In this document: positions 15,528-39,346 of the stretch, piece by piece
Position numbering within the stretch: position 1 is the stretch's first letter
Layout of the letters: every line of letters begins with the position of its first letter
From: a virus
Length of the DNA stretch: 61,728 nucleotides
Direction: 5' to 3' (one strand)
IMG/VR virus record: IMGVR_UViG_3300035661_000068
Coordinates: 1 to 61,728 of that record
Made by a program: the position numbers and the translations under genes
Notes under the pieces: generated by a model
The model's database searches: none
The model's input: the letters and a program-made list of their open reading frames with translations, nothing else
What the model was told of the DNA's origin: nothing

Positions 15528-15555
15528 ATTGTACGATCATAGTCGCTGAAGTCAA
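15528..15555 (-). promoter_or_regulatory. Sigma70-like promoter
   Basis: Minus-strand TTGACT (15550-15555), 16-nt spacer and TACAAT (15528-15533). The -35 overlaps the stop codon of the polymerase gene, so the operon starts immediately after dnaE. Confidence 0.6.
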
Positions 15556-18500
15556 GCGTTATCCAAGTATCGCTTAACAATCGGCTGCGGACCCGTCGGC
15601 TTATCATTGTGTCCCACCAGTCTGACTTGGCCGATGGATCGAAACTTTGCCATCACGCTCACCTGCGGATCGACGTTGCCGATCAGGTATACGGTCCTGG
15701 GTACATCGTTGCCTTCACCGTACACGGGGATCTGACCAGGATTCTGTTTCACGATAGACGCGACACTGGAAATATGCTCTGTTTTGACTAGGATGCACCG
15801 GGCCAAATAGCCAGCCTCTTCGATCGGAACCCAGTCATCACAGTAGACCTGAATATCATCGCCCTTTCTGCGAACCTTACCGACGATGAAGCCGATCCTA
15901 TCCTCCCCGAGAAAACTTCGGCACTTGTAGAAACACTCCGACCACGCGACAGCTCGAACGCTTCCGTAGAAGTCGTCGAATACCATTGGGGCGAACTGGA
16001 CCATCGTTCCGCCGTGCGCGAACTGCTTAACCTCAAAGCTGCTGATCATGCCACCCAGGATGACCTGAGACTTGTCGCACAGCACATCCAGTTGGTCGCA
16101 CCGATGCGTAGAGAGTGGCTCGACCGCAGCCCTGTGTTCGTTCAATGGATGGCCTGACATGTAGAAACCAAGGACTCGCTTTTCTTCGGCGTAACGGATC
16201 TTGTCCGGCAGCTCTGGTATCGGTGGGAGCCACATCGAGGTGTCCTCACCGAGCAACTCTTCCATCGTCGTCTGACCACCGGCTTTACGCTTAGCCTTGC
16301 TTTTACCATGCTGCATCGCGGTGTCGGCAACGGCCAGCCACTGGGATCGTTTCTTACCAAGACTATCCAGGGCTCCGGAGTGGATCAAGGATTCGACCGC
16401 GCCACCTGTAACCTTCTGCTTGCGATCCTCTTTCCTCATCAAGCTAGCGAGGCTGCTTCGCTCAAACAAGTCCAGGATATCACCGTATGGTTGGTTGGCT
16501 GCGATCATCTCCGCCGCGTCACGACCAATGCCCTTCACGACCGAAAGGCCGAGTCGGATGACGTCGCCGTCGAGCTGGCAGTCAGCACCACTTCGGTTCA
16601 CATCCGGACACAGCACTTCAATGTCCATGCGACGGCAATCCAGAATGTGCTCACTCAGGTACTTCTCACGGTTCGCACCTTCTTGTTCAGATGATAAGAG
16701 GCATGTCATGTACTCGCGGGGATAGTGATGTTTCAGGTAAGCTGTTTTGTACGCCAAATCAGCATATGCTGCTGCGTGTGATTTGTTGAAACCATAGAGA
16801 CAAAACTTCTCAATCTTCTCAAACATCATGGTTGCGGCGAGATCGTTGATGCCCCGGTCAGCACACCCGCTGATGAATTTCTCCTTGGCAGATAGGATCA
16901 TGTCAAGCTTCTTTTTGGCGATAGCTTTGATGATCTTGTATGCTTCAGTCAGTGGTATTCCACCAAGCTTGTTGAGGATCTGCATGATATCCTCTTGATA
17001 GATCATTAAGCCGTATGACTCCGTGATGAATGAGTCGACATCTGAGTGAATCGGTTCAATGACCTTTCGACCGTGCCGACGATCTACGTAGTCGTCCACG
17101 ACACCACCGTCGAGAGGTCCTGGACGATACAAGGCAACGATCGCGATGATGTGGTCGATCACGTCAGGCTGCATCTTGATCAGCAACTCTCGCATGCCGG
17201 ACGATTCGAGCTGGAACACACCCTTCGTCTCACCCCGAGCCATCATCGCGTAGACACCTGGGTCGTCCATGGGGATTCGGTACTGATCAAAGGTCGTGCC
17301 GAGCGACGCCAGGAGTTTGCGACAAGCTTCCATGATGGTCAAGTTTCGCAACCCAAGGAAGTCCATCTTGAGCAGGCCGGATTTCTCAACGTCGCCCATC
17401 GCCCATTGGGTGGAGACGGCGTGCTGGCCGGTCGATTTGCCATCCTCTTTGACTTTGAGGCGTTGGAGCGGGCAGATGTTCATGATCGGCTGGTTGCAGA
17501 CGACGACTCCTGCCGCGTGCGTCCCAGCACTCTTCTCGATGCCTTCGATTCGCCTAGCCATGTCGATGACACGCTTGGCTAACGGATTCTCATCAATGAT
17601 CTTGCGGAGATCTTCCGATTGCTCGATCGCTGACTCGATCGTGCAGTGCAGGGTTTCGGGGACGCACTCCTTGAGCTTCTTCACATCGGACAGCGACATG
17701 CCAAGCACACGACCCACGTCAGCGATACAGGATTTTGCCGATAATGTGCCGTATGTTCCGATCTGACAGACTCGGTCCTCACCGTACTTATCCACGACGT
17801 ACTGGTAGATCTCGGCGCGACGCTCCGTGCAGATGTCGATGTCGATGTCTGGCGCTTCAGCGCGGCTCTCGTCAAGGAACCGCTCGAACAGAAGGCGGTA
17901 GCGGAGAGGGCAGACGCTGGAGATGTAGAGGGAGTAGGCCGTGATGGCACCACAGGCGCTGCCACGGGCGATGCAGGGAATACCTTGAGATCTCGCGTAC
18001 CGAACGACGTCCCAGAGGATGAGGAAATAGCTTGAGAAGCCAAGTTTCGAGATCACCTTTAGCTCACGGTTGAGGCGATCTAAGTGTTCTTGACCGACGA
18101 CCTCATAACGTTCACTCAGCCCCTTGAGACACAGCTCTCGCAGGTAGGAATCGACCGTGCCGCTCGGCACCTCAAACGAGGGGAATTGGCGTTTTCCGAA
18201 TTCGAGGCTCGTGTAGCTATCTTCGATCGAGTCGGCGATCTCTTGGGTCCGCTCTAACGCTTCTCGCTGATCCGGCATCGCGGCCAGCATCTCGGTCGGG
18301 TTCTTTACGTAAAACTGGTCTGTTGAGAATCTCATTCGGTTGACATCATCGTGGCGGGCACCCGTGTTGATGCACAGCATGATATCGTGCGGAATCGAGT
18401 CTTCCTGACGCATATAATGAGCATCACTGGTCCCGACAAGAGGAATCCCCTTGGACCTAGCAAGGTCGACCGCGCGGATCATGTGGGCAACCTGCGGCTC

Positions 18501-19046
18501 ATACCCATTATTCTGGATCTCGATGAAGAAGTCTTTGCCGAACGTCTTCTGAGCCCAGTCGCAATACCGACGAGCTTCGGAAAACTTGTCGCCCATGATG
18601 AGGTCGGAGAACTCAGACGAGATGCAGCCGCTCAGGCAGATCAGACCTTCCGAATGAAGCTCCAGCAGCTCTTTGTCCACGCGAGGCTTGTAGTAGTAGC
18701 CTTCGATGAACGCCTTCGACGAGAGCCGGAACAGATTCCGTACACCCTCGCCGTTCTTGGCCAGCATCGTGAGATGGAACGAATGCTCTTTGCCAGAACA
18801 TCCGCCTGTCCTGCCACGCTCGGTTCGGTGCCCAGGAGCCACGTAAAGCTCGATGCCAGCGATCGGCTTGACGCCCTGTTCCTTGCAGTGATGCAGGAGC
18901 TGAGGGAATGCGGCCATGTTGCCGTGGTCGGTGACGGCGATGGCGTCCATCCCGCTGGCTTTGACGTGTTTGACCAGCTCGGGGATCCGGTTGGCACCGT
19001 CGAGGAGCGACATCGTGCTGTGGCAATGAAGGTGAGCGTATTTCAA
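15552..19046 (-). CDS. dnaE: DNA polymerase III alpha subunit (DnaE type)
   Basis: 1164 residues, the normal size of bacterial DnaE. The start is TTG at 19046 within the previous stop (TTGA). It polymerises phage DNA. The N-terminal PHP domain (1 to about 220) keeps its metal ligands: HLHCHS, TDHGN, and TSDAHY, so it may be an active 3'-5' exonuclease. The catalytic acid pair is in PDIDIDI (about 398-404) and the third aspartate in MDFLGLRN (about 559). The tail holds an OB fold (VILGGMISSFEV, near 1000) and a C-terminal domain. No DnaQ-type proofreader, clamp or clamp loader is seen in this window. 'SAGTHAAGVVV' and the finger/thumb motifs are typical. Confidence 0.95.
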   Translation of the reverse strand: MKYAHLHCHSTMSLLDGANRIPELVKHVKASGMDAIAVTDHGNMAAFPQLLHHCKEQGVKPIAGIELYVAPGHRTERGRTGGCSGKEHSFHLTMLAKNGEGVRNLFRLSSKAFIEGYYYKPRVDKELLELHSEGLICLSGCISSEFSDLIMGDKFSEARRYCDWAQKTFGKDFFIEIQNNGYEPQVAHMIRAVDLARSKGIPLVGTSDAHYMRQEDSIPHDIMLCINTGARHDDVNRMRFSTDQFYVKNPTEMLAAMPDQREALERTQEIADSIEDSYTSLEFGKRQFPSFEVPSGTVDSYLRELCLKGLSERYEVVGQEHLDRLNRELKVISKLGFSSYFLILWDVVRYARSQGIPCIARGSACGAITAYSLYISSVCPLRYRLLFERFLDESRAEAPDIDIDICTERRAEIYQYVVDKYGEDRVCQIGTYGTLSAKSCIADVGRVLGMSLSDVKKLKECVPETLHCTIESAIEQSEDLRKIIDENPLAKRVIDMARRIEGIEKSAGTHAAGVVVCNQPIMNICPLQRLKVKEDGKSTGQHAVSTQWAMGDVEKSGLLKMDFLGLRNLTIMEACRKLLASLGTTFDQYRIPMDDPGVYAMMARGETKGVFQLESSGMRELLIKMQPDVIDHIIAIVALYRPGPLDGGVVDDYVDRRHGRKVIEPIHSDVDSFITESYGLMIYQEDIMQILNKLGGIPLTEAYKIIKAIAKKKLDMILSAKEKFISGCADRGINDLAATMMFEKIEKFCLYGFNKSHAAAYADLAYKTAYLKHHYPREYMTCLLSSEQEGANREKYLSEHILDCRRMDIEVLCPDVNRSGADCQLDGDVIRLGLSVVKGIGRDAAEMIAANQPYGDILDLFERSSLASLMRKEDRKQKVTGGAVESLIHSGALDSLGKKRSQWLAVADTAMQHGKSKAKRKAGGQTTMEELLGEDTSMWLPPIPELPDKIRYAEEKRVLGFYMSGHPLNEHRAAVEPLSTHRCDQLDVLCDKSQVILGGMISSFEVKQFAHGGTMVQFAPMVFDDFYGSVRAVAWSECFYKCRSFLGEDRIGFIVGKVRRKGDDIQVYCDDWVPIEEAGYLARCILVKTEHISSVASIVKQNPGQIPVYGEGNDVPRTVYLIGNVDPQVSVMAKFRSIGQVRLVGHNDKPTGPQPIVKRYLDNA

Positions 19047-19766: not shown

Positions 19767-20010
19767 GGCATGGATGGCGATCGCGCAGAGATCTAGCCGA
19801 TTCGAGCGAGCATCCGAGCTTAAACAGCACGACTCGCTGCCTAATAAGATCTGTCCTGGCGAGTTCGACGGCTGACTCAAAATGGGCGATGGCGGCGTCG
19901 ATCGCCTGATCACGAGTTTCATAATACGCAGTACCGTGGATCTGCGGACCTTCGAGGAAGACGATTTCGACGTTGTCGTCTAGACACTGGACCCAATGAA
20001 GACCACGCAT
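19753..20010 (-). CDS. Small hypothetical protein behind the helicase
   Basis: 85 residues, starting at the ATG (20010) that overlaps the helicase stop. It begins MRGLHWVQCLDDNVEIVFLEG and continues with an acidic/alanine helix (QAIDAAIAHFESAVELA). The helix-strand layout resembles small single-domain phage proteins. The function is unknown. Confidence 0.5.
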   Translation of the reverse strand: MRGLHWVQCLDDNVEIVFLEGPQIHGTAYYETRDQAIDAAIAHFESAVELARTDLIRQRVVLFKLGCSLESARSLRDRHPCLDKL

Positions 20011-21323
20011 CAAAACACCACCTGATCACTCATGACTTTGAGGTTCTCGAATCGTTGTGAGTGAGCACGGAACGCGGTGAAGATATTACCAGGGGCACCG
20101 TGACGGTTCTTCGGCACGATGATCTCGGCGATCCCAGGCATGCTGTCAGGATCGTAGTATTCTGGCCGATGCAAGAGCAGGATCGTGTCAGCGTCTTGCT
20201 CGATCGCGCCTGACTCGCGGAGATCAGACATGACAGGGCGGTGCCCATCGCGACCCTCAGCTTTTCGGTTGAGCTGCGAGAGCATAATGACCGGCACGTT
20301 GAGTTCGCGAGCCATGATCTTGCCCTGGCGACTCATCTTAGATATCTGCTCTTGTCGCGAGTCTCGTGATTCCACGCTGCTGACGAGCTGCAGATAATCA
20401 ATAACGATCAAGCCGAGACCAGTGGTCCGCTTCTGCTTCCTCGCCATCGCCAGTATGTCGAGCATCGTCATGTTGGGATTATCCTCGATCAGCATAGGGC
20501 TTCTGCGTTTAACAAACCCCTCAGCACAATCTCGAAGCATCATCCGCTCAACATCGGTGAGCAAGACGGACTGCCTGATACTGTTGTACGGAACATCGGT
20601 CCAGAGCGAAAACAGCTTATTAAGAACTTCCGCTTTAGACATCTCAAGACTAAAGAAGAGGATCGGTTCGCCCAGCACCCACCCGACATAATCCATCAGA
20701 TTGAGCACGAATGAGGTCTTACCCATCGCGGGCCTACCCGCAACGATCGTGACCATGCCGTCGCAGAGTCCTCCGATGAGCTGATCTAGCTTAACAAGGC
20801 CAGTAGGTTTGCCCGGAAGGTAGACGCCAGACCTGATCCGCTCCTCGATCGCCGCGACGGCCCCCATGGCCTCTGACCGAACATCGACAACCGTGGAGAC
20901 AACTGATTCTTCAGCAATCGAGTTGAACGTGTCGGATGCCGTCTGAATCAACTCTCGTCCAGACACCTGCTCGTCCGCCGACATCTTGATCAATTCGCTT
21001 CCAAGCCGAGCCATTTCACGCTTGTTGGCGTGCTCGCGAACGATGCCAGCGTAGCCGCGAGCATTCCGGCCATTCAAAACCGACGAGAAAGCGTCGACCA
21101 GATAGGTCTCGCCGACTTCGCTGACTTTGCCCTTCCTTGACAGCTCGTTGAACAGCATGACGCTGTCGACGGGTGATCCGCTCTGGTACAGATCCAAGAC
21201 AGCCTGCCATACAATGGCGTTCCGCTCAGAATCCATGTGTGATGGCTTGACGTGTGATACGTCGTCCAACATGTCATTGTCATGCAAGACTGAGCCGATG
21301 AGGGCTAATTCGGCGTCGACCAT
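20010..21323 (-). CDS. dnaB: DnaB-type replicative DNA helicase
   Basis: 437 residues, normal for phage DnaB helicases. It unwinds the fork as a hexamer and would recruit the phage primase. The N-terminal DnaB domain (AELALIGSVLHDNDML) is followed by a linker and a RecA-like ATPase with Walker A GRPAMGKTS (about 195-203), Walker B LIVIDYLQL (about 304-312), 'PVIMLSQLNRKAE' and 'SDLRESGAIEQDADTILLLHRPEYY', all hallmark DnaB motifs. The ATG at 21323 has AGGCGG upstream. Between it and SSB lies a weak hairpin, so the two may be partly separate transcripts. Confidence 0.95.
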   Translation of the reverse strand: MVDAELALIGSVLHDNDMLDDVSHVKPSHMDSERNAIVWQAVLDLYQSGSPVDSVMLFNELSRKGKVSEVGETYLVDAFSSVLNGRNARGYAGIVREHANKREMARLGSELIKMSADEQVSGRELIQTASDTFNSIAEESVVSTVVDVRSEAMGAVAAIEERIRSGVYLPGKPTGLVKLDQLIGGLCDGMVTIVAGRPAMGKTSFVLNLMDYVGWVLGEPILFFSLEMSKAEVLNKLFSLWTDVPYNSIRQSVLLTDVERMMLRDCAEGFVKRRSPMLIEDNPNMTMLDILAMARKQKRTTGLGLIVIDYLQLVSSVESRDSRQEQISKMSRQGKIMARELNVPVIMLSQLNRKAEGRDGHRPVMSDLRESGAIEQDADTILLLHRPEYYDPDSMPGIAEIIVPKNRHGAPGNIFTAFRAHSQRFENLKVMSDQVVF

Positions 21324-23768: not shown

Positions 23769-24200
23769 ATGGCCGATCCAACGGCACCAACACCCTGGTA
23801 TAAGAAAATTGATTTCGTACAAATTTTCATGGTCGGTTTTATGTCGTTCATGGCATATACGGTCTACGACCTAAAAACCAACGGAACAACCAATTACGCC
23901 GTCGCCGTCGACCCTGAAGCGATCAGGCTTGGCCAGCTTTATCTACCCCTGCACAACGACGCCTACTACCAGTCGGTCGAGGCTGAGGTGCAGGACATCT
24001 TGGCTGGCAAGTCGATCGAGGAGGCTCAGGCCCACCGGGCTCAGGTCGAGCAGTCGATTCGAGCAAAAGCCTACACCGATTTGGTCGGAAACAAGATCTT
24101 CAACATCATCCCTGCCGGGACCACGACGTTGACATCCGACCAGAAAGACCACCTCGCGTCTTTCCTACGAGGGACGGCCAAGCCGTTTAAGAAGCGATGA
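23769..24200 (+). CDS. Membrane-anchored protein of the lysis/envelope cassette
   Basis: 143 residues, RBS AGAGG. A hydrophobic segment at about 15-32 (FVQIFMVGFMSFMAYTVY) follows a charged start, so it is probably inserted N-in with the C-terminal 110 residues outside. That part is helical and acidic. Its stop overlaps the peptidase start (ATGA). It could be a spanin-like or holin-related partner; the sequence does not settle it. Confidence 0.5.
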   Translation: MADPTAPTPWYKKIDFVQIFMVGFMSFMAYTVYDLKTNGTTNYAVAVDPEAIRLGQLYLPLHNDAYYQSVEAEVQDILAGKSIEEAQAHRAQVEQSIRAKAYTDLVGNKIFNIIPAGTTTLTSDQKDHLASFLRGTAKPFKKR

Positions 24201-25102
24201 GCGAACACGACGAGCCTCAGGATCTTTCGCACTTAGGCGGATGGGACGAGCATAATCCGGATCGTATCGCGTTCGCGATGTCGCAGGATGCGTTCAGTGA
24301 CGTCGCGAGTCATCTGTTCCAAGGTTCGCCGCCAGAGACGGTTCTGCTTTACAAGGCATGGAAAGACGTGCTGGGTCAGTATCCGGCGTATCCGGCGCAG
24401 GAGATTGGCGATTGCACGAGCTTCGGAACCGGCCACGCCAACGACCTGCTCCAATGCGTACAGATCGCTATTGGCAAAAAACCGTTTGAATTCCACGAGA
24501 CTTGCACGGAAGCCATCTATGGCGTCGGTCGCGAGTTGGCCAACATGCTCGGCGGTGGTGATGGATGCTATGGCGGTGCCGTAGCTAAAGCAGTCTCTCA
24601 GGTCGGTGCTACCGATCGCAAGTCTGTCGGTCCATACTCTGGAAGCCGTGCGAAATCATGGGGACGATCTGGCGTTCCGGCTGACGTGAAGGCGAAGCTC
24701 GCCGCTCACAAGGTCGGTTCGATCGCTCTGGTCGCGACGACAGATGATGTCGTGACAGCCCTGGCTAATGGCAACCCTTGCATCGTGTGCTCCAACCAGG
24801 GGTTCACCATGACCCGCGATACTAACGGCATGTGTAGTGCCAAGGGGGCGTGGGCGCATTGTATGTGCATCATTGGATATCGCACACACAACGGAAACAA
24901 AGAATTTTGTATCGGTCAATCATGGGGTCCAAGCACTCCGTCGGGTCCAACCACAGACGATCAGCCTGACTTTAGCTTCTGGATCACCAGCTCAACATTA
25001 GCCTCCATGCTTCGTGGGCAAGACTCGTGGGCATTGAGTGCGTTCGACGGCTGGCCCGGCCAAGCGATTCCGGCCCACTGGACCATCGGAGGCTTCGCGT
25101 GA
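24197..25102 (+). CDS. Papain-like cysteine peptidase, possible endolysin
   Basis: 301 residues. The papain-family core is visible: Q68 then GDC at 71-73 (oxyanion Gln and nucleophile Cys), then AHCMCIIGY with His near 221, then GQSWGP where papains have NSWG, so the usual Asn appears as Gln. No signal peptide is seen. It sits between two membrane proteins and behind a late regulator, where a lytic enzyme is expected. It may cut peptidoglycan cross-links like CHAP or NlpC enzymes, or host proteins. No other endolysin was recognised in the window. Confidence 0.65.
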   Translation: MSEHDEPQDLSHLGGWDEHNPDRIAFAMSQDAFSDVASHLFQGSPPETVLLYKAWKDVLGQYPAYPAQEIGDCTSFGTGHANDLLQCVQIAIGKKPFEFHETCTEAIYGVGRELANMLGGGDGCYGGAVAKAVSQVGATDRKSVGPYSGSRAKSWGRSGVPADVKAKLAAHKVGSIALVATTDDVVTALANGNPCIVCSNQGFTMTRDTNGMCSAKGAWAHCMCIIGYRTHNGNKEFCIGQSWGPSTPSGPTTDDQPDFSFWITSSTLASMLRGQDSWALSAFDGWPGQAIPAHWTIGGFA

Positions 25103-26331: not shown

Positions 26332-26751
26332 ATGATCGAGACCCAACAGATCCAGAATCACTTGACGATCTACGGCTGGCCGAAAGCGTTGGCCGCGACT
26401 ATGTTTTCCTGGTCCGGTACGCTGGTCGCGAACATCACAGAGGTTCCGTGGACTGGGATCTTCATGGCCGTGTGCGGCGTCATTCCACCGATCCTCAAGA
26501 TCATCTTCGACAACCGGCTCCGCAACCAGCAGAGCAACCTCGAATACATCGCAAGGCTGACGAAGGACCGTGAAGAGCAACTGCAACGAGCCAAGCAGGA
26601 TGAGGATGAGCTGGAGAAGCTGATCGACCACAATACCACGATCGAGCGATCGAATCAAGCCATCCTGGACTCAGTTCGCCAGAGTGGCCAGGATATCGAA
26701 GCGTTAAAGAGCGAAGTGCTGAAGCTCAAGGAAGTCAAACCGTATGAGTAA
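26332..26751 (+). CDS. Membrane protein with C-terminal coiled coil
   Basis: 139 residues. Two hydrophobic stretches (AATMFSWSGTLVANI and FMAVCGVIPPILKIIF, about 22-60) are followed by a long coiled coil rich in E/K/Q (LTKDREEQLQRAKQDEDELEK). This build recalls Rz-like spanins or tape/holin partners. Its stop overlaps the next ATG. Confidence 0.5.
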   Translation: MIETQQIQNHLTIYGWPKALAATMFSWSGTLVANITEVPWTGIFMAVCGVIPPILKIIFDNRLRNQQSNLEYIARLTKDREEQLQRAKQDEDELEKLIDHNTTIERSNQAILDSVRQSGQDIEALKSEVLKLKEVKPYE

Positions 26752-27415
26752 GCAAAAGATTCGCAACCGGATCATCGAACACCGTGACGTTCCGGCTGAA
26801 TTGATCAAAAACAATCCGAAGAACTATCGACTCCACCCGACCGAACAGCGAGATGCTTTAATTGGCGTACTCGAAGAGGTCGGGATCGTCGACACCGTCA
26901 TGCTGAGGGAGTTGGGCGACGGCACGTACGAACTCATTGATGGTCATCTTCGGAAGGATATCCTAAAAGGCCAGATGGTCCCGGCGACGATCGTCGACCT
27001 GACTGAGTCTGAGGCAGACCTAATCCTCGCGACCCATGACCCTTTGACCGGCATGGCCAAGCACGACCCCGAGAAGCTCGAAGAGCTATTGAAAGACCTG
27101 GAGACGAACAATCCCAGTATCGCAGATCTGTTGCAGCAGTTGGCTGACCAAGCCGGTATCGAGGAAGAGAAGGCGAAGTCTCACAAGAAGACCGACGGTG
27201 GATCTTTCACCGACCCCGACGAGAACTTCCGTGAGACCAAGATGATCATCCAGTATACGATGATCTTTGACGACGAAGAACAGCAGGCCGATTGGTTCGG
27301 GTTTCTCCGGTACTTAAAAGACCGGTTCCCTGAAGAAGAGTCGATCGGCGGCAGAGTTGCGTCACACTGCCGGTCTTTGCGGGAACGTGACGATTCGAGT
27401 GAAACACCATTCTGA
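26744..27415 (+). CDS. ParB-like nuclease-domain protein (first copy)
   Basis: 223 residues. The N-terminal 90 residues show the ParB/sulfiredoxin pattern: VPAELIKNNPKNYRLHP, QRDALIGVLEEVGIVDTVMLR, YELIDGHLR (the 'DGH.R' box) and VPATIVDLTESEADLIL. The C-terminal part is a separate alpha/beta segment with 'WFGFLRYLKDRFPE'. ParB-like domains bind or cut nucleotides or act as CTP switches. It is the outer member of a trio with the PAPS-reductase-like gene at 27613 and a second ParB-like gene at 28662. Confidence 0.75.
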   Translation: MSKQKIRNRIIEHRDVPAELIKNNPKNYRLHPTEQRDALIGVLEEVGIVDTVMLRELGDGTYELIDGHLRKDILKGQMVPATIVDLTESEADLILATHDPLTGMAKHDPEKLEELLKDLETNNPSIADLLQQLADQAGIEEEKAKSHKKTDGGSFTDPDENFRETKMIIQYTMIFDDEEQQADWFGFLRYLKDRFPEEESIGGRVASHCRSLRERDDSSETPF

Positions 27416-27422
27416 GGCAAAC

Positions 27423-27613
27423 ATGAGCGAAATGTCGCGTTTCGTACCAAGCACTGCAAAAAGTCAGCAAGCATCGCGATTGGCATTGGCAAAAACGATC
27501 AAGCGGATATTGAAATAACTTCCGATACTGGAAGCTTTCACAGGTTGACTTTCGATGAACTGATTCTAGCAGTGACTGAATTTGAAAAGCGAAAGAACTC
27601 TGAGATTCAGTAA
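27423..27613 (+). pseudogene. Small gene with an apparent one-base deletion in an A-run
   Basis: GAGG precedes the ATG at 27423. The literal frame gives only 31 residues. If one A is restored in GAAATG near the start, the frame reads MSENVAFRTKHCKKSAS..., continues with a coding-like sequence (ADIEITSDTGSFHRL) and ends at TAA 27611-27613 overlapping the next ATG. The span is 191 nt, one short of 64 codons. This is most simply a sequencing or recent deletion in an A homopolymer; the function is unknown. Confidence 0.5.
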
Positions 27614-28662
27614 TGCCCAAGGCAAAGCAGTACCTCGACATTGATGTCTTGACGGCGGCGAGACGAAGAATCCGCCATGCCTTCGACGCGTACGACACCG
27701 TCGCGGTCTGCTTCTCTGGCGGCAAGGATTCGACCGCCGCACTGTGGCTCGCAAAAGAGGTCGCGGAAGAGCGTGGTCTCGGCAAGGTCAATGTCGTGTT
27801 TCGTGACGAAGAGTTAATTCCAGACGCCGTGATCGAACATGTTCAATCAGTCATGAGTCTGCCATGGGTGCGACCACATTATTTCACTGTTCCACTGAAG
27901 AGCAGCAAGTTCATCCTGGGGAAGTCGTACCAGTATACACAGTGGGGACCAGGACGACCATGGGTGCGGGAAAAGCCAGCCAACGCGATATCGCTACCCG
28001 TGGGCGACACCAGGACGTTCGACCAGTACACGATCGATGCGTTTACGGCGGAGCGGTTCAAGGGGTCGGTGATGTTCGTGACCGGCATCAGGGCTGATGA
28101 AAGCTTAACAAGACTAAGATCCGTACTGAACAAGCTCAACATGCCTTGGGTGACGAACACCGACACGTCAGCCGCCAACGTCCGGCTCGGCAAGGTCATC
28201 TACGACTGGACCGAGAATGATGTATTGAAGTTTCTGCATGAGTCAGGTGCCCCGCTGTGTCAGTGGTACTGTTGGCAGCACTGGGCCGGATGCGGACTCA
28301 GAGTGTCGACGCCGATCCATTCCGAGCAAGCCAAGCGTCTCAGCAAGGTAAAGGAACTGGACCCAGAGTTCTACGACCGAATTCTCAAAGTCTTCCCAGA
28401 GGTCGAGGCCCAGGCCCGCTACTGGGGAGAGCTGGACAAGGAAGCGTTGCGACGCCAGTATGGCGAATCGCTCGAAGGCGTTCAGGCATACTTGGATGAG
28501 TTTCTGGTCGACGAGGCTCAACTGGCCATGGCCCAGAAACGGTTCGACCAAGCGTGCGTGTTCCATCAGAAGTCGCCCGAAGCTTACCCGGTCAGGCACA
28601 TTCTCGACCACTTCATCGGCGGCGGTTACAAACGGTCTGTCATGGCAATGAAGGTGAAGTGA
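27613..28662 (+). CDS. PAPS-reductase/adenine nucleotide alpha hydrolase family protein
   Basis: 349 residues. A PP-loop SGGKDST at 35-41 follows a hydrophobic strand (VAVCFSGGKDST), with ADESLTRLR, the motif 'VIYDWTENDVLKFLHE' and a C-terminal cysteine-rich part (CQWYCWQHWAGCGLR). The layout (PP-loop, DW.E.DV, distal cysteines) matches phage CysH/IbrA-type and DndC-like proteins, which activate substrates by AMP transfer or transfer sulfur. Flanking ParB-like genes make IbrA/IbrB-type pairing the best parallel. Its true reaction in phage is unknown; DNA sulfur modification is a speculative option. Confidence 0.75.
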   Translation: MPKAKQYLDIDVLTAARRRIRHAFDAYDTVAVCFSGGKDSTAALWLAKEVAEERGLGKVNVVFRDEELIPDAVIEHVQSVMSLPWVRPHYFTVPLKSSKFILGKSYQYTQWGPGRPWVREKPANAISLPVGDTRTFDQYTIDAFTAERFKGSVMFVTGIRADESLTRLRSVLNKLNMPWVTNTDTSAANVRLGKVIYDWTENDVLKFLHESGAPLCQWYCWQHWAGCGLRVSTPIHSEQAKRLSKVKELDPEFYDRILKVFPEVEAQARYWGELDKEALRRQYGESLEGVQAYLDEFLVDEAQLAMAQKRFDQACVFHQKSPEAYPVRHILDHFIGGGYKRSVMAMKVK

Positions 28663-29168
28663 TGCCCGACCCGATCGACTCAGTTGAGTGGCGAGCATCC
28701 CGCGACCTTCGTGGCAACGACTACAATCCCAACTACGTCCTGCTACCCGAGTTGAACCTCCTGGAGCGGTCGATCCTCAAGACGGGATGGACAGCCCCTG
28801 TGACGATCCTGCAGGATGGGACCATCGTGGACGGCTTTCACCGCTGGCGACTCTCCCTGGACAGCCGTAGGCTGCGAGAGCGGTACTCGGAGCGTGTCCC
28901 GACGGTGACGATCGACGCAACGCCTGAACAGGCGAAGGCCGCGACGGTTCGCCTTAACCGGGCTCGCGGGACACACGTGGCGATGCGGATGTCCCAACTG
29001 GTCCGCCAGCTTCTCGAAGACGGCCTGGACTCGCAAGAGATCGCGGCAGAGCTTGGGATGGAACCGAATGAGGTTGAAACGCTCTCCCAAGACTCAATTT
29101 ACAAGGCCCGAAACCTCGATCAATACAGGTACAGCCGCTCATGGATCCCGATCGAAAAAACGAAATAA
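28662..29168 (+). CDS. ParB-like protein with helix-turn-helix (IbrB type, second copy)
   Basis: 168 residues, start overlapping the previous stop (TGATG). The core has RDLRGNDYNPNYVLLPELNLLERSILKTGW, then 'TIVDGFHRWRLS' (the ParB 'DG.HR' box) and 'RVPTVTIDATPEQAKAATVRLNRARGTH', followed by a helix-turn-helix (LDSQEIAAELGMEPNEVETL). It matches IbrB/phage ParB-family partners of PAPS-reductase-like proteins better than the first copy. Role: probably a nucleotide-binding or DNA-binding partner of the preceding enzyme. Confidence 0.75.
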   Translation: MPDPIDSVEWRASRDLRGNDYNPNYVLLPELNLLERSILKTGWTAPVTILQDGTIVDGFHRWRLSLDSRRLRERYSERVPTVTIDATPEQAKAATVRLNRARGTHVAMRMSQLVRQLLEDGLDSQEIAAELGMEPNEVETLSQDSIYKARNLDQYRYSRSWIPIEKTK

Positions 29169-29866
29169 AGCTCTCGACGAAACAAGTCATCTTGCCGTGG
29201 GAGCAACAGATCTATGAGGGCGAGACAGATAAGAACTTTCGCATGTTCTGTATCTATCGCGATCTCGGCCAGCAACGAACCCTCTCCGAAGCCAGCGAGA
29301 AGATCTGCCCACCTGATCCTGAGAAGCCTCGTCAAAACAAGATCGTCGGCCATGTGGCGCACTGCTGTAAGAAGTTTCGCTGGCGAGAGCGGGCCAGCAT
29401 GTGGGATGGGGAGATCGACCGCAAACTCCGCCACCAAGAGGTCGTAGAGATCAAGAAGATGAAAGAACGGCACATCTCCATCGCGAGCCAACTGATCACG
29501 AAGGCGTTGGAGCGACTCCTGACGCTCAATATCGCCGATATGGGGCCGACCCAACTGCTCAACTTCATCACGGAGGCGATTCGCATTGAAAACGACGCCC
29601 GTGGCGTGAAGAACATCGTCCAGGTTGAACATGTCCAGTCCGATCCGGGCGAACAGAGTGTCAGCCAGGAAGAGACGCCCGAGAATCTCCAGCTTATCCT
29701 CGACACGCTGGCTCGGATCGGTGCCGTTCCGCCACAAGCCATGGGCGTTCTGAGAGGGTACGGCGGTGGCAGCGAAGCTGACGATCAGACCATCGCCGAC
29801 AGCGACGTCGTGGATGTGGAGATCGTTCGCGATCAATCCAATCTGGAGGAATCGGATGAGTCTTGA
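29141..29866 (+). CDS. terS: Terminase small subunit-like protein
   Basis: 241 residues. It sits directly before the large-terminase genes. The N-terminal helices (WEQQIYEGETDKNFRMFCIYRDLGQQRTLSEASEK) and 'KFRWRERASMWDGEID' match small terminases of phages of this type. The following helical middle and acidic C-terminus fit an oligomeric DNA-recognition subunit that binds the packaging site. The start at 29141 overlaps the IbrB-like gene by 28 bases. The assignment rests on position and pattern. Confidence 0.65.
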   Translation: MDPDRKNEIKLSTKQVILPWEQQIYEGETDKNFRMFCIYRDLGQQRTLSEASEKICPPDPEKPRQNKIVGHVAHCCKKFRWRERASMWDGEIDRKLRHQEVVEIKKMKERHISIASQLITKALERLLTLNIADMGPTQLLNFITEAIRIENDARGVKNIVQVEHVQSDPGEQSVSQEETPENLQLILDTLARIGAVPPQAMGVLRGYGGGSEADDQTIADSDVVDVEIVRDQSNLEESDES

Positions 29867-30551
29867 GACGATCGCCAAGTATTGTGCCCTCAGCCCTACG
29901 ACGCCGCAAGCAGAATTCTGCGAGTCAGACCGCTTCGTCACGACAATCAGCGGCCCCATGGCGATGGGAAAGACCACAGCTCTTATCATGTCGGCCCTGC
30001 GGTTCGTCGACGACCCCCGCTACAACGCCATGATCTTCCGTCGCCGATTCAGCGATCTGAAGATGCCCGGAGGGATCGTTGATAATGCCAAGCGGATCAT
30101 CGGGGGTGATGCTGCTTGGTCAGAAAAGCATAAGCGATTCACCTTCCCCAGTGGTGCCAGACTTTCATTTGGATACGCCGAAACGGAACGTGATCTTACT
30201 CGCTATCTCGGCGATGAGTTTCAGTACATCGGCATCGACCGAGTGAATGAATTACATACCAAGAAGGATGCGGTCGGGGAGATTCCAGAAGCGGTGTTAC
30301 ATTTGATATGTCGGCTCCGGGAGGCACAACCCAGGCGGATCCCGCTCCGACTTGCCATGACGATCTCTGACGTTGATGAGTCAGTGGAGTGGTTGCGATG
30401 TCGGCGATTCAGGACAGAGTTCGCCGGGAAGCAGCACCACGTCAAGGCACCGTGGCTCAGTAATCCCCACGTAGATCATGATGGCCTCATGAGACAGCTC
30501 GAATCACTCGATCCGGTGACGCGAGATTGTCTGATGGGAGAATGGCTTTGA
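29856..30551 (+). CDS. Large-terminase ATPase-only paralogue
   Basis: 231 residues, RBS GGAGG. It aligns with residues about 40-250 of the true large terminase downstream: Walker A GPMAMGKTT (33-41), 'MIFRRRFSDLKMPGGI', 'SEKHKRFTFPSGA.LSFGY', 'LGDEFQYIGID'. The Walker B ends IGID at 128 followed by R129 where TerL has E146, so the catalytic glutamate is replaced. The NPGG motif after the ATPase (residues about 185-195 in TerL) is absent, and the frame stops exactly where the ATPase domain ends (RDCLMGEWL matches RARMLYGDW). The nuclease domain is missing. It is either a regulatory or dominant-negative subunit or a remnant of an ancestral duplication. Confidence 0.75.
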   Translation: MSLETIAKYCALSPTTPQAEFCESDRFVTTISGPMAMGKTTALIMSALRFVDDPRYNAMIFRRRFSDLKMPGGIVDNAKRIIGGDAAWSEKHKRFTFPSGARLSFGYAETERDLTRYLGDEFQYIGIDRVNELHTKKDAVGEIPEAVLHLICRLREAQPRRIPLRLAMTISDVDESVEWLRCRRFRTEFAGKQHHVKAPWLSNPHVDHDGLMRQLESLDPVTRDCLMGEWL

Positions 30552-30608
30552 TTGCCAACCGAAGCCTCAGCGTTCGACTCCTAAGATTGCAAGCAAACTG
30601 AAGGCCAT

Positions 30609-32078
30609 ATGGCTCAAAACATCAGCATCAACGATCAGGCCGAGCTGGCAAAACTTCTGAAGCCCAGGCTGACGAAATATGTCATCCACAAGCCGCATCC
30701 CAAGCAGGCCGCGTTCTTACTCCTTAACCAGCAAGAGGTTATGTTTGGAGGGGCGGGCAGTTCGGGCAAAAGTGATTCCTTGTTGATGGCTGCTTTGCAG
30801 TACGTGGATGTGCCTGGATACTCGGCTCTAATCTTGCGTCGAACATTCGCCGACCTTTCGTTGCCCGGTGCCATCATGGACCGAGCCCGCGAATGGATGT
30901 CGAGATTTCCTGAAGTCCACTGGTCAGAAAAACAGCACCGATTCACCTTCCCGAGTGGCGCAACGCTGCAATTCGGTTATCTCGAAACCGCCAATGACAA
31001 GCACCGATATCAGGGTGCTGAATTTCAATATGTGGGATTCGACGAATTGACCCAATTCCCGAAGGCGGATTACGAATACCTCTTTACCCGCTTGCGACGC
31101 ACTAAGAATTTGTCAGTTCCGCTCCGAATGAGATCAGCGACGAACCCTGGTGGACCACACGGAATCTGGGTGCGTGAGCATTTTGTTGACAAGCCGGACC
31201 CAAGCAAACGAATTTTTTTGCCAGCAACGGTGCATGACAATCCGACAGTAAGCTACGAGGAATACGCCGCGACGCTTGAACGGGTAAACGAAGTCGACCG
31301 TGCCCGTATGCTCTACGGCGACTGGGATATCCAGCCCGAAGGTCTCGTGTATCCCGAGATGGACAAGACGATCTTCGACTCTTCCGAGAAGTTCAAGAAC
31401 GGCATGCCTCCGGGAGAGCATTACGGCGGAATCGACTGGGGGTTTACTAGCCCTGCGGTGTTTTTGATTGGAGTCTTGGACGAGAACAAACACTTTTGGA
31501 TATACTACGAGCGATACGTGCGGGGAAAAACGGTCGCGGAACACGCCGCCGCGTTGCCGAGAGAGAACGAAGTCCTTTATTTCGCCGACTCTGCTGATCC
31601 TCAAAGCATTGCTCAGCTTAAAAAGGAAGACTTTATTGTCCGAAAGGCCAACAAGGACATCAAGTTTGGCATCAACATTGTCCACGAATGGATAAGGTCG
31701 GGACGACTCCATATCAGCTCAGATTGCAAAGCATTGTTTCAAGAAGCAAAGCTCTACCGAAGAAAATCGACACAAGTTAAGGAAGAGCACGAGGTTGGAG
31801 ACCACGACGGTGGCGATCCAGACATCCCGATCAAGAAGAACGATCACGCGCTGGACAGTTTACGCTACACCTTAGTGGGCGTACATAAGCTAATTGGCGG
31901 CTTACCAAAGCACGAGAACGACGTCGAAGAAGTGTCGCTCCCAGAAAATCAAGTCGAGATTAAGAAGCAGTGGAAGTCAAGCGAGTCGCCCTACCGTAAC
32001 TTCGATCTCGGCGTGCCCGACAAGGAAGAAGTCAAGCGTCATCACGACTGGAATAACCCTCGCTGGTGGAACAAATAA
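30609..32078 (+). CDS. terL: Terminase large subunit (packaging ATPase-nuclease)
   Basis: 489 residues. TerL cuts concatemers and drives DNA into the prohead. Walker A is GGAGSSGKS (47-55), Walker B VGFDE (142-146), followed by 'RMRSATNPGG', and the RNase H-like nuclease shows acidic residues in IDWGFTSP (about 275), FADSAD (about 324) and NDHALDSLRY (about 413). Length is normal for this class. RBS GAAGG. It follows the ATPase-only paralogue with a 57-bp gap and precedes portal by two bases after its stop. Confidence 0.95.
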   Translation: MAQNISINDQAELAKLLKPRLTKYVIHKPHPKQAAFLLLNQQEVMFGGAGSSGKSDSLLMAALQYVDVPGYSALILRRTFADLSLPGAIMDRAREWMSRFPEVHWSEKQHRFTFPSGATLQFGYLETANDKHRYQGAEFQYVGFDELTQFPKADYEYLFTRLRRTKNLSVPLRMRSATNPGGPHGIWVREHFVDKPDPSKRIFLPATVHDNPTVSYEEYAATLERVNEVDRARMLYGDWDIQPEGLVYPEMDKTIFDSSEKFKNGMPPGEHYGGIDWGFTSPAVFLIGVLDENKHFWIYYERYVRGKTVAEHAAALPRENEVLYFADSADPQSIAQLKKEDFIVRKANKDIKFGINIVHEWIRSGRLHISSDCKALFQEAKLYRRKSTQVKEEHEVGDHDGGDPDIPIKKNDHALDSLRYTLVGVHKLIGGLPKHENDVEEVSLPENQVEIKKQWKSSESPYRNFDLGVPDKEEVKRHHDWNNPRWWNK

Positions 32079-32080
32079 AC

Positions 32081-33556
32081 ATGGGAATATTTGATCGAGT
32101 CATGGATCGCATCCGTGGCAAGTCAGCACCGTCCAGCAGTCCCAGCAGCGGTCCATTCCTGGGCTTCATGGATGCGTACAAGAGTCGGCGATCACCATTG
32201 CCGCTGGAGTTGCTCCAGAGTCACAAGAACGTAGCCTACGCGTGTGCCAGTATCAATGCTCAGGCGTTCGCATCGGTCCCGTTGCGACTCTACCACGTTA
32301 CAGCCCCTGGCCAGCGTGGCCCCAAAAACTTTCCAGCCAAGATGGTTGATACTAGGCGGCTCGAATGGCTGAAGAGTAACAACAACTTCACGCCAATCAT
32401 GGCCAACGACGTCACGATCCGAGAAGTTGCCGACCACCCACTGATGAAGCTCCTGCACAACCCCAATCCATTTCATGGCGAGTTTGACTTGCTCGAATGG
32501 ACCATGACGTCGATGGATATCATGGGCGACGCCTATTGGTCGTTCACGTTCGTCGATATCGGTGGATCAAAGGTTCCGACGCAGATCTGGCCGCTCCAAG
32601 CTCATCTGATGCGACCAATCCCTGACTACACCGATGGCAACATCCTGAGCCATTACGAGTACAGCGGCACGACTGGAAAAATCGTGTATCAGCCTGACGA
32701 AGTTATCCATTTTAAGCATGTTGGCCTAACTGATCCGTACCTGTATGGACTATCGCCGATGCGAGCTGCGTTCGAGCAGGTCACGGTCTCGGATAAGCTG
32801 TTGGCATACGAAGAAGCGATCCTCGACAACCGTGCTCGACCAGACATGATTATCAGCCCCAAGGAAGCGATCGGTCAGCAGGAAGCCAGACGTCTTGAGC
32901 GTAAATTCCAAGAACAGTTTCGTGGCGGCGGGAGTGGCGGCATCGTCATCGCAGAGTCCGGGTTCGACTACAAGAGCATGAACTTTCCGCCTGCCGACTT
33001 GGCCGCACTTGAGATCCGCAAGGTGTCCAAGGAAGAGATCGCCAACGCGTTCAAAGTTCCAGTCTCAATGCTCCAATCCAGGGATGTGAATCGGGCCAAC
33101 GCCGAAGCCGGTGCGTACCAACACGCCAAGGGGGCGGTGCTGCCACGATGCAGGACGTTCGAGCAGTTTCTGAACATGAAGCTAACCCCGCTGTACGACG
33201 AACGTATCTTCCTAGCCTTCGACAATCCTGTCATGGAAGACGCCGCTGAGGCTCGTGAGTCTCGCAAGGTCAATGTCCAAACCGGCATCTGGACGATCAA
33301 TGAAACGCGACGAGTCGACGGCCTGCCTCCGGTCGACGGCGGCGACGACGCCTACATGCCGTCGAATTATGCACCGATTGCGTTGCTAAAAGAAAACGCA
33401 CAAGCGATCATCGATAGGAACCGTGACTCGGCCACCACGCCACCGGGTATTTCCGAGCTTCCAAAAAAGAAACCAAAACGTAAACCTAAGAAGCCAAAGA
33501 GTTTAAGATATCGCATCGCTAAGACGGCCAAGGATATCGATGGAGAAAAGACGTAA
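32081..33556 (+). CDS. Portal protein (HK97 family)
   Basis: 491 residues from the ATG at 32081. Portal forms the dodecameric vertex through which DNA enters. The pattern fits HK97-type portals: MGIFDRVMDRI, 'AYACASINAQAFASVPLRLY', 'HPLMKLLHNPNP', 'GDAYWSF', 'GLTDPYLYGLSPM', 'SKEEIANAFKVPVSML' and the acid/Glu pattern in 'INETRRVDGLPPVDGGD'. The C-terminus ends in a lysine/proline-rich stretch (KKKPKRKPKKPK), often seen in virion proteins that contact DNA. It is part of a close terL-portal-protease order. Confidence 0.9.
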   Translation: MGIFDRVMDRIRGKSAPSSSPSSGPFLGFMDAYKSRRSPLPLELLQSHKNVAYACASINAQAFASVPLRLYHVTAPGQRGPKNFPAKMVDTRRLEWLKSNNNFTPIMANDVTIREVADHPLMKLLHNPNPFHGEFDLLEWTMTSMDIMGDAYWSFTFVDIGGSKVPTQIWPLQAHLMRPIPDYTDGNILSHYEYSGTTGKIVYQPDEVIHFKHVGLTDPYLYGLSPMRAAFEQVTVSDKLLAYEEAILDNRARPDMIISPKEAIGQQEARRLERKFQEQFRGGGSGGIVIAESGFDYKSMNFPPADLAALEIRKVSKEEIANAFKVPVSMLQSRDVNRANAEAGAYQHAKGAVLPRCRTFEQFLNMKLTPLYDERIFLAFDNPVMEDAAEARESRKVNVQTGIWTINETRRVDGLPPVDGGDDAYMPSNYAPIALLKENAQAIIDRNRDSATTPPGISELPKKKPKRKPKKPKSLRYRIAKTAKDIDGEKT

Positions 33557-37894: not shown

Positions 37895-37922
37895 TTGGCG
37901 ACCACGTGGTGGCCATTATATA
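37895..37922 (+). promoter_or_regulatory. Possible promoter before the capsid gene
   Basis: TTGGCG (37895-37900), 16-nt spacer and TATATA (37917-37922), 114 bp before the capsid ATG. The match is only 4 of 6 in each box. The spacer contains the near-palindrome ACCACGTGGT. Confidence 0.3.
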
Positions 37923-37950
37923 TCGGTCAGGGTCATCGGTAGATCCGCCA

Positions 37951-38000
37951 GCCTTCGCGAAAGCGTCGGTGGAGGTCGGAAGCCAAACCTGGAGACCGCC
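37951..38000 (+). promoter_or_regulatory. Structured 5' leader of the major capsid gene
   Basis: Two adjacent hairpins can be drawn by eye: CGC-GAAA-GCG (37956-37965), a GNRA tetraloop, and GGAGGTC (37971-37977) with GACCGCC (37994-38000), one mismatch. They lie in the 174-bp gene-free stretch before the capsid start, whose ribosome binding site is AAGGG. Confidence 0.35.
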
Positions 38001-38035
38001 GTGGTGATCGTAACGCACAAACAAAGGGTATTAAA

Positions 38036-39346
38036 ATGGAAAAGTGGTTTGAACTTGTGAAGGAATACGAAGGCCAGAGCGTTGGCAAGCGTATCCTGTT
38101 GGACGAGGCAAATGGCAACGCCCTCAAGCAGCTTGGCATCGCCAAGGACGCTGCTCAGGACGTCAACGCCGAGATCGTCGCAAAGGCAACCCAGGACGGC
38201 ATTTCGACCGTCACGGCTTCGGTGTCGAAGAGCATCGAGACGCTGGTTAACGAGCTGACGGCTCAGATCAAGCGTCCTTCCGTCATCACCGTTACGGCTG
38301 GCGAAGAAGACAAGACCAAGTGTTTTGCCGACTTCCTCCGTCGAATGGCTTGCGGCGACCGTGAAGGTTTGATCAAGGTCTACAAGGCTCAGAAGTCTGC
38401 CCTCGCGGAAGCTTCTGGCGTGACCGGTGGTTACCTGGTTCCGCCTGAGTACCTGAGCGTCTTGATGCAGCTTGCTGCCGAAGATGCCATCGTCCGCCCC
38501 CGTGCCGACGTGATCCCGATGAACAGCCGATCGATCGACATCCCGATGCTCGACCAGACGACCGTTCAAGCTGTCGGCACGACCCCGTACTTCGGTGGTG
38601 TCATCGCCAAGTGGACCGCTGAATCGGCCACACGAAACGAAACCGAACCCACGTTCAAGCAGATCCAGTTGGTCGCTCACGAACTCGCCGGTATGTCGTA
38701 TGTCAGCCGTGTCCTCATGGCCGACTCGATCATCTCCGTCGACAAGCTCCTGACGAACAACTTCGGTCGTGCTCTCGGCTGGTACGAAGACTACGCCTTC
38801 TTGCAGGGTGACGGTATTGGCAAGCCTAAGGGTGTCCTGAACAGCCCTGCCTGCATCTCGGTTACTCGTGCCAACACGGGCTCGGTTCCATTCTTGCTCG
38901 TCGATGTCGCGAAGATGTACAGCAAGCTCCTGCCCCGCTCTGTCAGCAAGGCTTGCTGGGTTATGTCGCAGACCGTGCTTCCTTACCTGATTCAGCTCGC
39001 TGACGCTTCGGGCCGCACCGTCTACCTGCCGAACCCGACGTACAACACCGACGGTGGCGCAGCTACCAAGTCTGTCCCGATGACCTTGCTCGGCTTGCCG
39101 GTCATGTTCACCGAGAAGCTTCCTGCGGCTGGCACCGCTGGCGACGTCCTGTTGGCCGACTTCAGCCAGTACCTGATCGGTGATCGTAACGGCTTCGAGA
39201 TCGCATCCTCGACCGACTACGCCTTCACCAGCAACCAGATCGTCTGGCGGTTCATCCACCGTGTCGATGGCCAGCCTTGGCTCGATGCCCCGATCACCTA
39301 CCAGGACGGTTCGACTCAGGTCAGCCCGTTCGTCAAGCTCTCCTAA
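38036..39346 (+). CDS. Major capsid protein (HK97 fold)
   Basis: 436 residues. HK97-type features: a helical N-terminal region of about 110 residues that could act as delta/scaffold domain, then 'GGYLVPPEYLSVLMQLAAEDAIVRPRADVIPM', 'WTAESATRNETEPTFKQIQLVAHELAGMSYVSRVLMADS', 'EDYAFLQGDGIGKPKGVLNSP' (E-loop/G-loop patterns typical of these capsids), 'VMSQTVLPYLIQLADASGR' and 'NQIVWRFIHRVDGQPWLDAPI'. It is followed by a clear hairpin terminator. Codon use is noticeably more biased (few rare codons), as expected for the most abundant virion protein. Confidence 0.9.
   Translation: MEKWFELVKEYEGQSVGKRILLDEANGNALKQLGIAKDAAQDVNAEIVAKATQDGISTVTASVSKSIETLVNELTAQIKRPSVITVTAGEEDKTKCFADFLRRMACGDREGLIKVYKAQKSALAEASGVTGGYLVPPEYLSVLMQLAAEDAIVRPRADVIPMNSRSIDIPMLDQTTVQAVGTTPYFGGVIAKWTAESATRNETEPTFKQIQLVAHELAGMSYVSRVLMADSIISVDKLLTNNFGRALGWYEDYAFLQGDGIGKPKGVLNSPACISVTRANTGSVPFLLVDVAKMYSKLLPRSVSKACWVMSQTVLPYLIQLADASGRTVYLPNPTYNTDGGAATKSVPMTLLGLPVMFTEKLPAAGTAGDVLLADFSQYLIGDRNGFEIASSTDYAFTSNQIVWRFIHRVDGQPWLDAPITYQDGSTQVSPFVKLS

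Follow-up and report, generated by a model that had tools for sequence, protein, structure and literature searches.

To our knowledge, viral terminase rings have been described as homomeric. In phages with a split terL gene, the ATPase and the nuclease each have an ORF of their own, often with an intron or intein at the break, and the two halves are the sole TerL. A non-catalytic ring partner is familiar from F1-ATPase, whose alpha subunit keeps its nucleotide-binding site, has lost the catalytic glutamate and offers an arginine to its neighbor.

Among packaging motors, the ring of phi29 has a ‘special’ regulatory subunit, which is an identical copy of gp16 and hydrolyses ATP (PMC8187434). In the TerL of D6E the trans-acting arginine finger is Arg158, 15 residues past the catalytic Glu143; the finger mutant R158A regains part of its ATPase activity with the Glu-dead variant E143A, and 4-5mers can assemble from the isolated ATPase domain (PMC5727402). 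Whether all terminase subunits must fire has been probed by artificially mixing active with dead subunits, and T4 motors containing inactive subunits still work, slowly, engaging DNA less and pausing more (PMC8589836). In the openly accessible literature, we found no description of a terminase paralogue or heteromeric packaging ATPase of the build reported here.

Gene neighborhood and domain content of P0001

The window, by which we mean the whole stretch of DNA analyzed, is a 61,728-base viral record from a tailed phage; among its genes are those for portal, capsid, protease and tape measure. Its packaging genes are ordered terS, P0001, terL, portal, where P0001 denotes the ATPase-only TerL paralogue. 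The features of this cluster are:

29141..29866, + strand: terS, small terminase subunit (phrog_6299, E 1.1e-17)
29845..29849, + strand: GGAGG ribosome-binding site of P0001, 6 bases upstream of the ATG (read from the sequence)
29856..30551, + strand: P0001, ATPase-only TerL paralogue, 231 aa (BLASTP, Pfam, phrog, AlphaFold, fold search)
29952..29975, + strand: Walker A GPMAMGKT of P0001, residues 33-40; Lys39 kept, Ser changed to Thr at 40
30237..30242, + strand: Walker B Asp128-Arg129 of P0001; Arg replaces the catalytic Glu
30312..30320, + strand: Arg153-Leu-Arg155 of P0001, kept (69-TerL alignment; finger position per PMC5727402)
30366..30377, + strand: SDVD of P0001, at the NPGG site (Asn-Pro in 69/69 TerLs)
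30609..32078, + strand: terL, complete (ATPase and RNase H-like nuclease), 489 aa (Terminase_6N 1.5e-13, Terminase_6C 1.2e-4, phrog_979 1.6e-63)
32066..33556, + strand: portal protein (PF04860 1.2e-58)

The 3’ end of terS overlaps the start of P0001 by 11 bases, and 57 bases separate the P0001 stop from the terL start. P0001 is 35% identical to the phage’s own TerL over 229 residues (BLASTP, E 7e-39) and matches Pfam Terminase_6N (E 1.1e-6) and the TerL family phrog_979 (E 1.5e-27). It spans the entire TerL ATPase domain, without the linker and without the C-terminal RNase H-like nuclease domain: its last residues, MGEWL, align to TerL Trp239, ahead of both. The initial annotation had described a 231-residue ATPase-domain gene directly before terL that ends with the ATPase domain, and the intact ORF together with these matches bears this out. 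The motifs that it named were likewise found as described, namely GPMAMGKT, YIGIDR where TerL has YVGFDE (Asp145, Glu146), and SDVD in place of NPGG. A split terL gene is ruled out by the complete, uninterrupted terL at 30609-32078, and no second nuclease ORF was found in the window.

Three + strand genes stand in a row before terS: a ParB-like gene (26744-27415), a PAPS-reductase-like gene (27613-28662) and another ParB-like gene (28647-29168). The replication genes of the phage include a bacterial-type Pol III alpha of 1164 aa (15552-19046, - strand) and DnaB (20010-21323, - strand); further genes encode a DnaG-like primase (7109-8728, - strand) and a ThyX-like protein (638-1528, - strand), and a papain-family (Peptidase_C1) match lies at window positions 24197-25102 (+ strand, E 1.6e-4). 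Long antisense ORFs run opposite terS (29120-29989, - strand, 289 aa) and opposite the capsid gene (37916-39259, - strand, 447 aa); both probably arise only because third positions are GC-rich.

Residues, origin and integrity of P0001

We compared P0001 column by column with 69 related TerLs. The catalytic position is Glu in 68 of them and Gln in one, and the replacement by Arg129 in P0001 is therefore not an alignment slip. Asn-Pro, present in every one of the 69, is Ser171-Asp172 in P0001. Retained are the adenine-motif Gln18, Walker A Lys39, Walker B Asp128, Arg153 and Arg155. Twenty-five columns are at least 95% invariant among the TerLs, and P0001 keeps 18, including the Walker A Gly-Lys and Arg153/Arg155; the seven that it has lost include all three of the catalytic Glu, the Asn and the Pro (P 0.015 if losses were random). 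By alignment only, Arg153 and Arg155 correspond to Arg161 and Arg163 of TerL. Counting 15 residues from Glu146 of the window TerL leads to Arg161, the column of P0001 Arg153, which is the same spacing as in D6E. Such a residue set would be expected for a subunit that binds nucleotide and serves its neighbor’s active site, not its own. The earlier suggestion of a protein that binds ATP and does not hydrolyse it fits these residues, the binding elements being kept and the Glu and Asn-Pro lost, and fits the predicted ATPase fold.

The identity of P0001 to its own TerL (35%) does not exceed that to other TerLs (up to 39%), and its branch in the tree has a length of 4.3 against a median of 0.53. 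Silent sites between P0001 and its own TerL are saturated, with 28 of 76 codons identical and 29.0 expected from codon usage. Saturation and equal closeness to other TerLs point to a paralogue that is either old or foreign, and on these grounds we rejected a recent tandem duplication of terL. The picture of a ‘twin’ that arose in situ as a local duplicate of TerL is not supported. The decaying duplicate that the initial annotation offered as the plain alternative loses its recent, local form as well, and persists as the remnant of a displaced, different TerL, which is weighed below.

The codon usage of P0001 is phage-like, since its score (0.657, compared with 0.671 for TerL) exceeds that of every synonymous shuffle (mean 0.556, maximum 0.606). 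AlphaFold predicted a full ATPase fold with a pLDDT of 88 and a pTM of 0.87, from an alignment that consists of TerLs, which aids the fold. The best solved fold matches were the TerLs of D6E (1.1e-7), Sf6, T4 and P74-26; these came from the fold search, while a search of the PDB by sequence gave no match. When neutral drift was simulated from a TerL-like sequence to the present match of P0001, the frame stayed free of stops in about 2 of 100 runs, indels not being counted. Given that the simulation starts from a typical TerL, this argues against plain decay.

Search for relatives and a second phage with ATPase-only copies

No orthologue of P0001 was found in viral_contigs, phages or plasmids with P0001, TerS, the portal, P0003, an alignment of P0003 and P0004 (both described below) or a DNA pattern of the Walker B variant as queries. 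The phages closest by TerL in the viral scan (47-50% identity, L003-L006) do not have the P0001 gene. Among about 150 related TerL loci, a second ATPase ORF occurs in one only, contig RXKB01000009.1; the tandem pair to which the initial annotation had drawn attention is thus absent from these loci bar this one, where terL and P0003 are neighbors. In the phage collection, P0001 matched 754 records at 755 places and TerL matched 1,986 records at 1,988 places. Since the counts of places and records nearly coincide, TerL pairs are nearly absent from that collection at that sensitivity. No further pair was found in 101 genomes of the Dependentiae phylum or in four other phyla, each sampled with about 390-400 genomes. 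The ATPase-only TerL paralogue is a rare feature.

Several candidates were rejected in the course of these searches. Three genomes (G538, G727, G214) had short frames that proved to be contig ends. Pakpunavirus K5 and Nankokuvirus RP7 gave partial matches and a Peribacillus plasmid had two match places; the TerLs inspected there are single and full length. Seven other loci (L010, L016, L046, L048, L059, L062 and L157) have TerL ORFs about 580-870 aa long, with several hundred residues interrupting the ATPase domain; these insertions are probably inteins.

The phage contig RXKB01000009.1 (G007:C73) comes from a Dependentiae MAG and has portal, tape-measure and head protease genes. It encodes a complete TerL plus two divergent ATPase-only paralogues:

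L160:7511-8182, + strand: P0003, ATPase-only paralogue, 224 aa, directly after terL of RXKB01000009.1
L172:1354-2163, - strand: P0004, ATPase-only paralogue, 269 aa, on the strand opposite terL and about 30 kb away

Profiles that contained neither protein matched P0003 at 6.6e-15 and P0004 at 5.1e-15, and the matches to phrog_979 were 1.4e-13 and 2.4e-6, respectively. The model of P0003 is TerL-like (pLDDT 80.6). P0003 has lost the Walker A Lys, has Asn-His for Asp-Glu at Walker B and keeps both arginines of the finger segment; P0004 has Asp-His at Walker B, keeps one arginine, the invariant one, and is extended at its N terminus by a Cys-rich stretch (CxxC). In P0001, P0003 and P0004 alike, the catalytic Glu is replaced by a basic residue and the Walker A Ser by Thr, and all three keep the finger-segment arginine that is invariant in the 69 TerLs.

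The three proteins are only about 21-25% identical to one another, and in the tree all are fast-evolving and sit on very long branches; they are not demonstrably one family, and their common features may reflect convergence. Because P0003 is without the Walker A Lys, ATP binding cannot be a trait common to all three. Three cases in which a basic residue replaces Glu while the arginine is kept nevertheless speak more for an accessory subunit that donates an arginine and does not hydrolyse ATP than for simple decay, and the presence of two ATPase-only paralogues in a second, unrelated phage makes a kind of protein likelier than one decaying duplicate. The ATPase-only copy is probably a rare working part, not simple junk.

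Possible role, rival explanations and known systems

The reading to which we tentatively lean, short of even confidence, is that P0001 is a folded ATPase-only paralogue that would bind but not hydrolyse nucleotide and would act as a non-catalytic partner of the packaging motor, regulating TerL. Judging from its residues, it may bind ATP without hydrolysis. It could join or cap TerL rings, or TerL before assembly, and its arginine finger would then be offered to the active site of a neighboring TerL. With no catalytic Glu, coupling motif or nuclease domain, it might slow, pause or gate either initiation or the switch from nuclease to motor. Precedents for such a partner are the complementation of Glu-dead and finger-dead D6E mutants and the T4 motors that run with inactive subunits. 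The analysis shows that the gene is intact and lies in the terS-terL-portal cluster, which domains it contains, which residues it has lost and kept, and that two like-built paralogues exist elsewhere; ATP binding, TerL contact, the regulatory effect and the role in packaging are inferred. Against a regulator, the pair is extremely rare, with none like P0001-terL among the related TerL loci; inactive subunits only impaired the T4 motor (PMC8589836); and the copies of the two phages cannot be shown to form a single family, P0003 being without the Walker A Lys as well. We are doubtful about the wider proposal that ATPase-only TerL paralogues are a recurrent class and build hetero-oligomeric packaging motors in which a non-hydrolysing subunit donates an arginine and sets the timing of the motor. 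If a phage does naturally encode a partner that is Glu-less, finger-keeping and nuclease-less, it would provide a natural experiment on subunit firing and a tool for mixed-ring biochemistry.

The main rival is the remnant of a displaced older TerL: a new, complete terL would have been acquired and the 5’ half of the older one left after terS, decaying or awaiting loss. P0001 sits at the usual place of terL, overlapping terS just as the terL of psiM2 overlaps its own terS, and a displaced TerL is therefore a fair rival; its lack of particular similarity to the present TerL, its very long branch and its loss of catalytic residues would also suit a remnant. However, P0001 is open over 231 codons, stops at the domain border, and has a strong ribosome site and phage-like codon usage, and the drift simulation speaks against decay. 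A remnant would also leave unexplained why the same build occurs twice in another phage, after terL and 30 kb off. We regard this history as a real possibility, if somewhat on the unlikely side.

That the ATPase domain was co-opted for work outside the phage’s own packaging, for example as a nucleotide-binding scaffold or a DNA-binding factor, appears improbable. The distance of P0004 from terL, its opposite strand and its Cys-rich extension would agree with another job, as would the Walker A Lys lost from P0003 and the fast evolution of all three copies, but two of the three adjoin terL, P0001 lies inside the terS-terL-portal cluster, and PADLOC and NCBIfam families gave no match. We give very little credence to a dominant-negative poison that mixes into the rings of competing phages’ or satellites’ TerLs and stalls them. 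It is true that P0001 is about as near to foreign TerLs as to its own and that a single inactive subunit makes a T4 motor less apt to engage DNA and more prone to pausing (PMC8589836), but the phage’s own motor would be poisoned too unless specificity exists, and the gene belongs to the late packaging cluster, not to the early host-takeover genes. Slimmer still is the chance that P0001 is an active ATPase with a relocated catalytic acid, Glu132. All three copies do have a nearby acid, in P0003 and P0004 a Glu three residues past the Asn/Asp, but most TerLs have Thr/Gln at position 236/237, Asn-Pro is lost as well, and P0003 no longer has the Walker B Asp or the Walker A Lys.

Compared with TerLs of the psiM2 / PhiF3 type (phrog_979; Terminase_6N plus Terminase_6C), P0001 has an ATPase domain that is homologous over its full length (35% identity to psiM2 TerL), the same gene neighborhood and the same predicted fold; it differs in having no linker, nuclease, catalytic Glu or Asn-Pro, and in being additional to a complete TerL. 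Split terL genes likewise include an ORF of ATPase-domain length, to which BFVD entries of 195-272 aa can be likened by length alone, whereas in the window a complete terL follows P0001 and a second nuclease ORF is absent. The special subunit of phi29 has in common with the proposed role of P0001 that one ring member does not translocate (PMC8187434), although it is identical gp16 and not, as P0001 is, the product of a separate gene. P0003 and P0004 are, like P0001, ATPase-only TerL paralogues alongside a complete TerL, P0003 differing from P0001 in the absent Walker A Lys. The alpha subunit of F1-ATPase belongs to another ATPase family, of which P0001 is not a member; with a putative place in the TerL ring and a finger arginine kept by alignment, P0001 would nonetheless work like it.
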